NCBI GenBank assembly: GCA_913757435.1
Contig: CAJYDM010000002.1
Coordinates: 124,001-188,000 of the forward strand
Source: Syntrophomonas sp. DTU019
Lineage (GTDB): Bacteria > Bacillota > Syntrophomonadia > Syntrophomonadales > Syntrophomonadaceae
DNA length: 64,000 nucleotides
Direction: 5' to 3'
Of the stretch, positions 15,115 to 52,723 are shown in pieces (the stretch's first letter is position 1; each line of letters opens with the position of its first letter). Made by a program: the position numbers and the translations under genes. Under the pieces are notes generated by a model, which searched no databases, was not told where the DNA came from, and saw nothing but the letters and a program-made list of their open reading frames with translations.

Positions 15115-15129
15115 GGTATTAATGATAAT

Positions 15130-15211
15130 GGCTTGCTTCCCTACGACAGTATTAACTGACAGGTTCAAAGGGTCAGGTTTTACCTTCTCAACTCCTAAGA
15201 GTCCCCCCGCA
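15130..15211 (-). promoter_or_regulatory. TPP riboswitch (THI box)
   Basis: The minus strand carries the conserved aptamer elements in order: GGGGGGACTCTT, GTTGAGAAGG, ACCCTTTGAACCTG and TCGTAGGGAAGCAA. Together with the adjacent terminator it indicates transcriptional repression of thiM-thiE-HAD-thiD by thiamine pyrophosphate. Confidence 0.96.
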
Positions 15212-15237
15212 ATATATTTAATTTATATTCTCTTTAG

Positions 15238-48647: not shown

Positions 48648-50738
48648 CTATTCAACACCAAACCAGGCCAGCGCATCGATATGGGATTCGCTGTCTGGCT
48701 GCAAAGCGGGAGGCTGGGACGGCATTTGATCGCCGGGCTTTTCAGGCTGTTCTTCTCCATCCAGCCGGCCCGGCATGAGCCATTCGGGCAGGTCGGTCAT
48801 ATCAGGGATGTCAGGGAGGCCAGGCCAATCAGGTAAATCAGGCATGGAAAACTGATGCCAATAGCAGATCAGATGAGGTTCGCTATTGCCGACAAAGGCC
48901 ATAGACACCGGACGCGGGCAGGCTTCCACCGCCACCAGGCCGCTGTCCATACATATATTGAGCCTTTTTATGCCCGCAGGCATGGGAAAATCAGTAGGCT
49001 GGAAGGCGGCTGAGGCGCTTCTCATGAAGCTGGCCCAGATGGGGCCGGCTGCCACCCCTCCGGCCTGATTAACTCGGCGATTGTCATCATATCCTACCCA
49101 TACTGCACAGCACAAGTAAGGGGTATAGCCCACAAACCAGGCGTCCTTGTAGTCATCGGTGGTTCCGGTTTTACCAGCACAGGGTCGGCCTACGGTAGCT
49201 TTAAGATGGGCTCCGGTGCCCCCACTCTGCATCACCCCGGTGAGCATATCAGTGATAATATACGCATTCTCCACCGACACCGCCCGCTTCTGCTGGGCAC
49301 GGTGCTCCTCTAACACCCTGCCGTTGGAGTTCAGTACTTTTATTATGGAGTAGGGGGCGCTATAGATACCTTTATTGGCAAAGGCACTGTAAGCAGCCGC
49401 CATCTGCACCGGGGAGACCTCGGTGGAACCCAGCGGCAAGGATAATACCGGCTTAATATTGGTAAACCCGAAATTCTGCGTATGACGGGCTACCCGAGCC
49501 GGTCCCAAGCGCTCGTTAACAGTCACTGCCACCACATTGTCCGATTTCATCACAGCTTCTTTGAGAGTAAAATCGCGCCAGTGGTAGGGTTCATTGCCGT
49601 AATCAGTGGGCTTATAGGGCGGACTTCCCGGAACCTCGAACTCCACTTCCTCACAGGGGATCATGTCAGCCTCAGTCCAGCCCGAGGAAATAGCCAGGGA
49701 GTACATGAACGGCTTAAAGGTGGAGCCCGGCTGCCGGGTAGCAAACGCCCGGTTGTAGCCGGAGGAAGCAAAATCACGGCCTCCCACCATAGCACGGATC
49801 TGCCCATTGCTGACGTCTACTGCCACCAGGGCCCCCTGCATCCCAGCCGGCCGTCCTTTCATGCCCTCACTCATAGCCCGCTCGGCGGCATTCTGCATGG
49901 TCAGATCCAGGGTGGTATATACTTTCATGCCACCCTGAAAAACTCTTTCCTCGCCGTATTGCTCGATCAGATATTGCCGGATCATGGCCACGAAATAAGG
50001 GGCGTCCCCACTGCTGGAGGCGGCCCGGCTGTAGCGCAGGGGGGTTCTGGCGATGGTTTCCCTCTGGGCTGCAGTAATATAACCTTCGGTCTCCATACGA
50101 TCTAAGACAACTGCCTGGCGCTCCTTGGCCCGTTCGGGATGCACGTAAGGATCGTAACCGCCGGGGTAGTTAGGAAGCCCGGCTAGCAGGGCGGCTTCTG
50201 CCACAGTCAGGTTCTGGGCGCTTTTGCCGAAAAAAGTGCGTGAGGCTACCTCAATGCCGGTGGCACCATGTCCGAAGTAAATGGAATTACAGTACAAGGC
50301 CAGGATCTCGTCTTTGCTGTATCTGCGTTCCAGTATGGCGGTATACCACAGTTCCTTTATCTTGCGAGTAAAGGTGCGCTCATTGGTCAGGTAAAGAATT
50401 TTAGCAGTCTGCTGGGTTATGGTGCTGCCTCCGGCCACTATCTTTCTGGCTTTGAGGTCGGCGATAAGAGCCCTTAGAATGCCTGACAAATCCACGCCGT
50501 GATGGCGATAGAAGTTTTTGTCCTCAACCGCTATGATAGCCTGCTTAAAGGAATCAGGTATATCCTCAAAAGGGATAACAATCTGATTCTGCTCGCTTAA
50601 ACCTCTGATAACTTTACCGTTTATATCGTAGATGATGCTCGGTTGGGGCACCTGAAAAGATGGCAGTTGCAGGCTGAACCCGCTGCTCACAATAATGAAA
50701 ATGAGGATATATACACCGAGCAAGCGCTTGCGTGTCAT
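48648..50738 (-). CDS. Class A penicillin-binding protein
   Basis: A 696-residue bifunctional cell-wall synthase with an N-terminal membrane anchor (YILIFIIVSSGFSL). Glycosyltransferase: AIIAVEDKNFYRHHGVD, GGSTITQQTAK and RKIKELWYTAILERRYSKDE. Transpeptidase: catalytic Ser in RQPGSTFKPFMYS, SDN motif in VMKSDNVVAV and KTG in AGKTGTTDDYKDAWFVGY. The C-terminal tail (about residues 625-696) is Pro, Asp and Glu-rich. GGGGTGG precedes ATG 50738. Confidence 0.93.
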   Translation of the reverse strand: MTRKRLLGVYILIFIIVSSGFSLQLPSFQVPQPSIIYDINGKVIRGLSEQNQIVIPFEDIPDSFKQAIIAVEDKNFYRHHGVDLSGILRALIADLKARKIVAGGSTITQQTAKILYLTNERTFTRKIKELWYTAILERRYSKDEILALYCNSIYFGHGATGIEVASRTFFGKSAQNLTVAEAALLAGLPNYPGGYDPYVHPERAKERQAVVLDRMETEGYITAAQRETIARTPLRYSRAASSSGDAPYFVAMIRQYLIEQYGEERVFQGGMKVYTTLDLTMQNAAERAMSEGMKGRPAGMQGALVAVDVSNGQIRAMVGGRDFASSGYNRAFATRQPGSTFKPFMYSLAISSGWTEADMIPCEEVEFEVPGSPPYKPTDYGNEPYHWRDFTLKEAVMKSDNVVAVTVNERLGPARVARHTQNFGFTNIKPVLSLPLGSTEVSPVQMAAAYSAFANKGIYSAPYSIIKVLNSNGRVLEEHRAQQKRAVSVENAYIITDMLTGVMQSGGTGAHLKATVGRPCAGKTGTTDDYKDAWFVGYTPYLCCAVWVGYDDNRRVNQAGGVAAGPIWASFMRSASAAFQPTDFPMPAGIKRLNICMDSGLVAVEACPRPVSMAFVGNSEPHLICYWHQFSMPDLPDWPGLPDIPDMTDLPEWLMPGRLDGEEQPEKPGDQMPSQPPALQPDSESHIDALAWFGVE

Positions 50739-50827
50739 GAAACCACCCCTTCATAGCTAAAAATACCCATTTTTGGATGGTTTCATTCCCTCCCGGGCAG
50801 CCAATCCCGCCTGAGGCCTGCAGGCTA

Positions 50828-50856
50828 TTGACAAGCCCTCCTAAGAGGGTTATAAA
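50828..50856 (+). promoter_or_regulatory. Promoter of corA
   Basis: TTGACA (50828-50833), 17-base spacer, TATAAA (50851-50856). It implies a roughly 150-base 5' leader before corA. Confidence 0.8.
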
Positions 50857-50894
50857 TTAAAGGAATCTAAATTGGGAAAGGCGGTGGTGGAAAC

Positions 50895-50990
50895 ATGGAA
50901 CCCATACCATTACGAAAGTCCTTTTTGCTATTTGGTCAATATAATAGTGCATGGGGGATTATGAACCACTACTGCTCTTTGGTCATGTAA
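50895..50990 (+). CDS. Candidate corA leader peptide (MgtL-like)
   Basis: A 31-codon frame between the corA promoter and corA, beginning ATG 50895 with GGTGG five bases upstream, reads MEPIPLRKSFLL and ends SLVM. Its MEPIP start is close to MEPDP of the enterobacterial MgtL leader, which makes ribosomes fall off at low magnesium. Its TAA stop (50988-50990) lies inside the 3' arm of a hairpin. Small size makes the call tentative. Confidence 0.5.
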   Translation: MEPIPLRKSFLLFGQYNSAWGIMNHYCSLVM

Positions 50991-51008
50991 TCCTCCACCA
51001 GAAGGAGG
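50953..51008 (+). promoter_or_regulatory. Mutually exclusive hairpins over the corA ribosome site
   Basis: Hairpin A pairs GGGGGATTA (50953-50961) with TAATCCTCC (50988-50996), nine pairs with one G-U. Hairpin B pairs CCTCC (50992-50996) with GGAGG (51004-51008), the corA Shine-Dalgarno, around a 7-base loop. Both use CCTCC, so A frees and B hides the ribosome site. Confidence 0.55.
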
Positions 51009-51015
51009 GTTGAAC

Positions 51016-51996
51016 ATGATCAAAACCTATTATTTCAGCCACGAACAACAAACCGTCTTGCACGATATCGATCTTTCCCAGCTCGACAGCCTCTTAGCCT
51101 CGAAGCAGAGCCTTTTGTGGATCGACCTCTATGACTGCGCCGCCAGTGAACTCCACTACATCGGAGATTTATTTCAATTCCATCCCCTTGCTTTGGAAGA
51201 CTGTCTGCAGAAGAGCCCCAGGGCTAAACTGGACCGTTATGATGATTATTATTTCTTCGTATTCCATGGGCTGCGCTACCATGAGGAAGCTGAGGAAGAA
51301 GACGAGATCACCAGCATCGAGTTGGATGTATTCATGGGGCCCAATTATATTGTAACCATTCACCCGGTGGCTTTGACGGCGGTGGGCAAAGTAGCCCGGG
51401 TGTGCCTCAAGGAAGGCAGATACATGGATATGGGTGCAGAGCACCTGTTGTATCGGATCGTGGATAATATGGTTGACGAATGTTTTCCGATCATTGAGCG
51501 CTTAGGGGAGCGGATTGACGATTTGGAAGACAATATCTTCATCCATCGCGGACAGGAGATCACTGAAGAGATCCTGGCTTTAAAAACCACCATCATTCTG
51601 CTGCGCAAGGTGATGATCCCGCAGCGGCGCATTTTCGGCAGCATCAACGGGTATTATTCATTTCTGGTCAATGAAGAGAACCGACCTTATTATCTGGACC
51701 TGGTGGACCATATGGACAATATCCTGGACTCGGCCAGCACTTATCGAGATTTGATCAACAGCTCTACTGAGACTTATTACTCCATAATTAACGGGCGGAC
51801 CAGCGAGATCATCACTGTTTTGACCATAATCTCCATTGTGATGATGCCCTTGACGGTGATAACCAGTTTCTACGGCATGAACCTCAACTACTTGCCCGGA
51901 GTGGACAGCGATTATTTTGTATGGGTGCTTACTTTGGGAATGATTACTCTGGTAGGCGGTATGTTGGCATTCTTCCGCTATCGCCGCTGGATCTGA
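51016..51996 (+). CDS. corA: CorA-type magnesium transporter
   Basis: A 326-residue pentameric channel-type transporter. The large N-terminal cytosolic domain ends in long helices (HRGQEITEEILALKTTIILL), and two C-terminal helices flank the selectivity motif YGMNLNYLPG; the last residues are FFRYRRWI. ATG 51016 follows AAGGAGGG. It has a long structured leader with a candidate magnesium-sensing peptide. Confidence 0.93.
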   Translation: MIKTYYFSHEQQTVLHDIDLSQLDSLLASKQSLLWIDLYDCAASELHYIGDLFQFHPLALEDCLQKSPRAKLDRYDDYYFFVFHGLRYHEEAEEEDEITSIELDVFMGPNYIVTIHPVALTAVGKVARVCLKEGRYMDMGAEHLLYRIVDNMVDECFPIIERLGERIDDLEDNIFIHRGQEITEEILALKTTIILLRKVMIPQRRIFGSINGYYSFLVNEENRPYYLDLVDHMDNILDSASTYRDLINSSTETYYSIINGRTSEIITVLTIISIVMMPLTVITSFYGMNLNYLPGVDSDYFVWVLTLGMITLVGGMLAFFRYRRWI

Positions 51997-52020
51997 AAGC
52001 AAACCTGGAGAAATGAGCGA

Positions 52021-52094
52021 GAGGTACGGGGACGGTTCTTTTGCCTTTGCCTTGGTTAACCAAGGCAAAGGCAAAAGAACCGTCCCCGTGCCTC
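52021..52094. repeat. 74-bp perfect-type palindrome; bidirectional terminator
   Basis: Two 37-base arms (52021-52057 and 52058-52094) are reverse complements with one mismatch and no loop. The outer part carries ACGGGGACGG, the same core as the other REP-like elements. It lies between the convergent corA and DUF47 genes and its right end overlaps the DUF47 stop codon (52094-52096). It should act as terminator for both. Confidence 0.9.
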
Positions 52095-52723
52095 TATGAA
52101 TATTTAACGCATATATTGCTCAAGAGTTCGGCCACATCCTGAGTGTAGTCCTGGGCCATCTCTATATGCTCGTATACTTCCCGCCATTTTATTATGGATA
52201 TGGGATCGTCTTCATGATTCTCAAACAGCGATGCCACCCCGGTGCGATACAGTGAGTCCTGCTTCCTCTCCAGGTTGAAGATCTCCGTGCAGATGTTTAA
52301 AATCTCTTTCTTATTGCGCTCCACTTTGTCCAGCATCCCAAAGGCCTCCTGCTGCAGGCGCAGAGATTCGGTCAGGACCCTGACCATTTCCTTAACGCGC
52401 TCATTAGGCTCTCCAGCTTTATAGAGTATCATGCGATCTATAATCCCGGTAATATAGTCCATGGTAGTAGCCAGCTTCTGTGAGAGCTGAAAAGCATCCT
52501 CTTTATCAAAGGGCAAAATAAAGCTAGTGTTTAAATGCCTCACCAGGTCCTCGTTGATGCGGTCACCCTCGTGTTCCAGGGCTGTCAATTTGGCCATCTT
52601 GATGTCCAAATCGGTATAGTTGCTGACAACTTCCTCCAAGATGGCGCTGCCCCTAACCACCACCCGGGCACTCTCATTGAACAACATGAACAGTTCTTCA
52701 TCTTTTCTGCCAAATAGACGCAT
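52094..52723 (-). CDS. DUF47/PhoU-like protein
   Basis: A 209-residue all-helical protein of the DUF47 (TIGR00153) family, distantly like PhoU: LFNESARVVVRGSAILEEVV, EHEGDRINEDLVRHLNTSF, PFDKEDAFQLSQKLATTMDY. Members usually regulate a Pit phosphate transporter, which is not present here. ATG 52721-52723 follows GGAGGTGA. Convergent with corA across the palindrome. Confidence 0.88.
   Translation of the reverse strand: MRLFGRKDEELFMLFNESARVVVRGSAILEEVVSNYTDLDIKMAKLTALEHEGDRINEDLVRHLNTSFILPFDKEDAFQLSQKLATTMDYITGIIDRMILYKAGEPNERVKEMVRVLTESLRLQQEAFGMLDKVERNKKEILNICTEIFNLERKQDSLYRTGVASLFENHEDDPISIIKWREVYEHIEMAQDYTQDVAELLSNICVKYS

Follow-up and report, generated by a model that had tools for sequence, protein, structure and literature searches.

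The window, i.e. the whole stretch of 64,000 nucleotides that was analysed, carries a corA gene preceded by a leader of about 150 nt, which lies between corA and a divergent penicillin-binding-protein-like gene. The features of this leader are given below by position in the window.

50828-50856, plus strand: sigma-A type promoter TTGACA-17-TATAAA (TTGACA 50828-50833, TATAAA 50851-50856), read directly
50880-50890, plus strand: Shine-Dalgarno (SD) sequence of the leader ORF, GGCGGTGGTGG, of GGTGG type, also the 5' arm of helix P1 (fold, covariation)
50895-50990, plus strand: leader ORF of 31 codons, MEPIPLRKSFLLFGQYNSAWGIMNHYCSLVM followed by a stop codon
50895-50909, plus strand: leader codons 1-5, MEPIP, the conserved acidic-Pro motif (codon statistics)
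50913-50915, plus strand: leader codon 7, CGA (Arg), part of a conserved CGA at codons 6-9
50953-50961, plus strand: 5' arm of hairpin A (A5), SD-like GGGGGATTA, an anti-anti-SD
50966-50976, plus strand: 3' arm of helix P1, CCACTACTGCT, within the loop of hairpin A
50988-50996, plus strand: 3' arm of hairpin A (A3), TAATCCTCC, anti-SD together with the leader stop codon
50978-51024, plus strand: hairpin B, 50978-50996 with 51004-51024, masking the corA SD and start codon (MFE fold, pairing, covariation)
51004-51008, plus strand: corA SD, GGAGG
51016-51996, plus strand: corA, Mg2+ transporter of 326 aa with a YGMN motif (Pfam PF01544, E 4e-66)

The promoter, the 31-codon MEPIP reading frame and the placement of its stop codon in hairpin A had been proposed in the initial annotation and are all present in the sequence; a promoter scan requiring T at the last -10 position did not list this promoter. 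The ORF runs from ATG at 50895 to TAA at 50988-50990, leaving 25 nt between its stop and the corA start. Hairpin A has nine pairs including one G-U, with the leader stop codon in its 3' arm. Hairpin B, also described earlier, was found with a core of CCTCC (50992-50996) paired to GGAGG (51004-51008), and the MFE fold extends it to the full arms listed above. Helices A and B have arm A3 in common and are mutually exclusive. Besides these, the leader fold contains helix P1, absent from the earlier description, which masks the SD of the leader ORF itself by pairing it with 50966-50976. The leader of the window folded better than 200/200 dinucleotide shuffles (z -3.4). A long near-perfect inverted repeat (GGGGACGGTTCTTTTGCC...), present as a single copy in the window, lies directly 3' of corA at 52020-52096 and could serve as a terminator or be of REP-like type. 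The only Rfam match in the window was a TPP riboswitch at 15120-15218 on the minus strand (62.6 bits).

The initial annotation had made its reading depend on conservation of the leader ORF and of the pairing arms in close relatives, and both were kept across the order. Across 28/28 Syntrophomonadales corA loci (CorA 59-100% identical) the leader ORF, hairpin A, hairpin B and P1 were all retained, and the ORF and arms recur before other Mg2+ transporters. The leader ORFs of these corA loci begin M/V-[ED]-P-[IVLW]-P and are 22 to 37 codons long. Taking elements before all gene types together, codon 2 encoded Asp or Glu in 64/64, codon 3 Pro in 53/64 (A, S, G or D in the other 11) and codon 5 Pro in 59/64. 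At codon 5 of the corA leaders 401/401 differing codon pairs were synonymous, against 5% at codons 11-16, and thus the start of the peptide is under amino-acid selection and the remainder is not; codons 6-16 vary freely in sequence and in length. A MEPIP-type DNA motif is by itself unremarkable, the window holding 2 where 1.5 are expected, and the evidence lies in its conservation. Three observations fit the earlier likening of this start to the enterobacterial leader peptide MgtL: codon 2 exchanges D and E, the Pro codons drift synonymously, and some leaders elsewhere read MDPDP. MEPIP, with one acidic residue and two prolines, is a weaker motif than the MEPDP of MgtL, which counts against the mechanism proposed below, and that such motifs would destabilise ribosomes in Bacillota is argued by analogy with E. 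coli MgtL.

As most leaders hold two Pro codons, and work cited in PMC11282234 implicates proline codons in the case of mgtL, the leader might be thought to attenuate in response to the supply of proline, tRNA-Pro or EF-P and not to Mg2+. The codon statistics point the other way, with the acidic codon 2 kept without exception and the first proline the replaceable one, and the Mg2+ transporter genes and M-box tandems described below point to Mg2+; we consider attenuation of this kind scarcely probable.

Apart from the motif, a particular codon choice follows it. Arginine at codons 6-9, which occurs in about half of the elements, was encoded by CGA in 23/30 cases of the non-redundant set. The downstream genes use CGA for 7.5% of their Arg residues (Fisher p 3e-19, a value inflated by the shared descent of the loci), and the later parts of the leaders use it for 9/85 (p 3e-11). 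CGA is decoded by an inosine anticodon and is a slow codon. A programmed pause directly after the motif is a plausible reading of this enrichment. Three elements of two other families (L103, L105 and L138) start with AUA or AUC (IDPIP) and keep the frame intact to the stop, which suggests deliberately weak initiation.

The three helices were evaluated by an alignment-free permutation, in which the energy of the duplex that each arm forms with its own partner was set against that with partners from other species; this test was adopted because MAFFT places P1 out of register in the genus of the window. Within families, the pairings A5 with A3 (z -7.3), A3 with the transporter SD (z -4.3) and the leader SD with the 3' arm of P1 (z -4.6) were all stronger than with foreign partners, and four control pairings were not significant in the same permutation. 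Column counts in the alignment labelled A3 agreed for both A and P1: there were pairs in which each side had changed, and paired cells made up 86.6%, compared with 42-59% when the arms were slid. The core of hairpin B was paired in 100% of cells, with G-U wobble; B alone had no compensatory changes in the alignment columns because the SD is constant. With stricter windows, placed solely by distance to both start sites, helix A (coding part with anti-SD) gave z -6.6 in 29 non-redundant corA loci and z -9.1 in 26 mgtE and other loci, and helix B (anti-SD with SD) was weaker at z -1.7 and -2.6, respectively. As helix A was absent from the search model, its covariation outside corA is independent evidence. 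P1 gave z -3.1 for corA and -7.6 for other genes, the non-corA signal being somewhat favoured by the inclusion of P1 in the search model. The A duplex was stronger than B in 63/64 elements, and in most relatives P1 crosses A in a pseudoknot topology rather than replacing it.

Three conserved helices, a pseudoknot topology and a position nearly always at Mg2+ transporters are also what might be expected of a metal-binding riboswitch, in which the RNA itself would bind Mg2+ and the ORF would be incidental. A conserved unpaired core is nevertheless lacking, the stretch of codons 6-16 being free to vary, and the motif drifts synonymously and exchanges D for E as a coding sequence does. No family of Rfam 15 matched at gathering score over 50860-51020. 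We therefore regard a riboswitch of this type as very improbable. Comparison across species establishes the ORF, the selection on its motif, the three helices, the exclusivity of A and B and the association with transporter genes.

The distribution of the element was followed with a covariance model (R1) built without hairpin A and with a refined model (R2) for the phylum. R1 located the element in 32/63 genomes of the window's order (in this search the class comprises the same 63 genomes), and those inspected were at corA with the exception of L100. R2 matched 44 of 398 phylum genomes at E 0.01. The matches below 1e-4 in the 398 genomes were at Mg2+-transport genes in 31/31 cases (corA, mgtE or PRC-MgtE_N-CBS, nrmT-type operons), and of the remaining 13, eight were at such genes, two preceded a citramalate-synthase-like gene and three were chance-like. 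The weak matches L073, L135, L146, L147 and L148 were not at Mg2+ genes and were taken as chance. In other Bacillota classes the element occurs before mgtE, a second corA subfamily and nrmT (Nramp) operons, so that it is common to Mg2+ transporter types of unrelated fold. One such class had it in 22/26 genomes, before mgtE in the loci read, with leaders such as MDPDPSRY, MDPDPGSS, MDADPSNK and VDPLPRLC. A PRC-MgtE_N-CBS gene was followed by an Nramp gene in 2/2 loci checked, the order of the NrmT Mg2+ transporter operon (PMC4072509). The CorA orthologues of Brevibacillus, Tumebacillus and Ammoniphilus (51-55% identical) had no element in the 220 nt read, and hence the element is not merely carried along with corA. 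In Carboxydocella a short MDGGP ORF was seen that the covariance model did not score.

At 23 loci the element is preceded, on the same strand, by an M-box Mg2+ riboswitch, and these tandems stand before mgtE, the second corA subfamily and an nrmT-type operon. At L104 the M-box aptamer is followed by a terminator-like hairpin with a T run and then by the leader ORF. The M-box covariance model (RF00380) had no match in the 64-kb window and none in 63/63 genomes of the window's order, the control search being positive in Bacillus subtilis and Lactococcus lactis. Taken together, the association with transporters and the transcripts shared with a validated Mg2+ sensor are indirect but strong indications from genome context that Mg2+ would be the signal.

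A5 starts a median of 39.5 nt downstream of codon 5, beyond the footprint of a ribosome paused on the motif, and was reached by 63/63 leaders having their stop inside the element. Folding of the 28 leaders with a masked ribosome gave a mean openness of the transporter SD of 0.08 without a ribosome; a ribosome on codons 1-6 raised this mean to 0.18, and 25/28 leaders showed a rise. With the ribosome further into the leader the openness fell to a minimum below 0.01, and it rose again with the ribosome at the leader stop codon. The profile fits a switch that is ON upon an early pause or abort and OFF when ribosomes run through A5, and the opening at the stop codon in this folding model would suit the opposite sign of regulation.

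That opposite sign corresponds to translational coupling, in which a ribosome finishing the leader would sit on A3 and melt B, and the same or another ribosome would start the transporter, full translation being the ON state. Besides the folding result, coupling is favoured by the position of the leader stop in most of the corA group, at A3 and some 13-18 nt before the SD. Coupling, however, has no need of helix A, which in two independent sets covaries better than the other helices, and coupling would increase uptake under ample Mg2+. The leader ORF of L024 ends inside A5 (VDPWPDRWHEQYLHRCHIYLGG), 53 nt before corA, with all arms kept, and in other leaders the position of the stop ranges from 11 nt before the start of A3 to 36 nt after it. 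We consider coupling unlikely, and L024 may serve as a natural test of whether coverage of A5 suffices.

The initial annotation had further supposed that early fall-off leaves hairpin A intact and frees corA, a reading that the comparisons support. In the window sequence itself, equilibrium folding runs against it. B (-54.2 kcal/mol) is far more stable there than A (-37.9 kcal/mol, pseudoknot ignored) whether or not a ribosome is on the early codons, and once the leader is complete, masking those codons leaves the SD closed. A ribosome placed at codon 5 gives A the advantage only until about nt 51008 has been transcribed. As B beats A at equilibrium in the window, A must act kinetically, during transcription, or as a P1-A pseudoknot.

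We favour, as likely, a mechanism in which Mg2+ is sensed through the translated leader ORF and the three-arm RNA does the switching, ON at low Mg2+; these bacteria probably sense Mg2+ by whether ribosomes can finish the leader ORF. At low Mg2+, ribosomes would pause or fall off at codons 2-5 or just after through intrinsic destabilisation, helped by the slow CGA codon. A5 would then be free once A3 has been transcribed, so that A could form, the SD would stay open and the transporter would be made. At adequate Mg2+, ribosomes would traverse A5, A3 would pair with the SD and translation of the transporter would fall. P1 may lower leader initiation once the leader is complete, and the upstream M-box of many relatives may subject the same signal to a further check, at transcription. 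From these comparisons we infer that Mg2+ is the signal and drop-off the event, and likewise the sign of the regulation.

By analogy the element may work like the enterobacterial MgtL and MgtQ, with a peptide start of the former type and an output of the latter. At low Mg2+, E. coli MgtL sheds ribosomes at EPDP, an established drop-off (PMC11282234), and the leader of enterobacterial mgtA resembles ours in having a short ORF with an acidic-Pro start before a Mg2+ importer and alternative RNA folds (PMC11282234, PMC11552253). It belongs to another phylum and has a Rho-dependent transcriptional output, whereas here an anti-SD pairs with the SD, and the likeness of the peptides is limited to the start motif. 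The enterobacterial corA leader has an upstream ORF (CorL), two exclusive folds, the ORF's SD in a stem and a reported Rho output (PMC11552253); unlike the present leaders, CorL is reported to have a single conserved proline, and the likeness in gene order need not extend to a common descent of the RNAs. What is shared with leaders of the MgtL and CorL type is a short ORF with its own SD before a Mg2+ transporter, a selected acidic/Pro start and exclusive structures linked to the ORF. Salmonella mgtQ, upstream of mgtB, has an acidic ORF and alternative stem-loops that mask or free the RBS of the transporter, and acts at translation (PMC8092293). An MgtQ-type switch demands an RBS-masking stem and a competing freeing stem, and both are present here as B and A. 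MgtQ has 8 codons, lies between genes and covers region 1, the competitor of the freeing stem; in the Bacillota element A5 itself is inside the ORF.

As the enterobacterial leaders are reported to open a Rho site by leader translation (PMC11552253), the switch at corA could likewise act on transcription. The conserved pairing of anti-SD and SD points to translation, and an intrinsic terminator, looked for in 50500-51300, was not found; we give a transcriptional switch very little credence.

The M-box has the same target genes and the Mg2+ signal in common with the element, and differs in being an aptamer of its own, which the window's order lacks. The nearest case of an M-box with upstream ORFs is M. 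tuberculosis pe20, which has the M-box followed by the ORFs and a platform of SD, anti-SD and anti-anti-SD; its peptide and logic differ, uORF2 being the regulated product, with a conserved Pro at position 7 and no acidic-Pro start reported (PMC12810186). The corA motif and mgtE motif of the Breaker group are likewise candidate RNA leaders before corA and mgtE, the former restricted to gammaproteobacteria (PMC6429828) and the latter to Thioalkalivibrio (PMC11109978). Our literature search, with subscription papers largely outside its scope, found no description of the Bacillota element, whose novelty is not certain.

On balance, we lean towards a widespread, as yet undescribed nascent-peptide Mg2+ sensor of Bacillota, in which an acidic-Pro leader ORF, a programmed slow CGA, in some families an AUA or AUC start, and an anti-SD switch would precede CorA, MgtE and NrmT genes, standing behind an M-box in some lineages, replacing it in others, and convergent with MgtL. 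Enterobacteria are known to sense Mg2+ at translation by means of destabilising nascent peptides; in Bacillota the same logic appears to be at work, backed by covariation, before four transporter types and coupled on one mRNA to a proven Mg2+ riboswitch. If true, the stability of the ribosome would be a general gauge of Mg2+ in bacteria, and the element suggests how lineages without the M-box control Mg2+ uptake. The dozens of natural variants (MEPIP, MDPDP, MDADP, MDDPDAD, the CGA codon, AUA/AUC starts) make the sequence rules of ribosome destabilisation testable.

Some loci depart from this arrangement. At L100 the element has no corA after it, and at L111 the mgtE that follows is broken or shortened; both are cases of either decay or assembly error. 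In two unrelated genomes (L140 and L150) a short ORF (MEPDLGDL and MEPDLSDL) with a GGTGGTG SD follows a T-box leader (RF00230) and precedes a citramalate/isopropylmalate-synthase-like gene, an acidic leader ORF that belongs to a different circuit.
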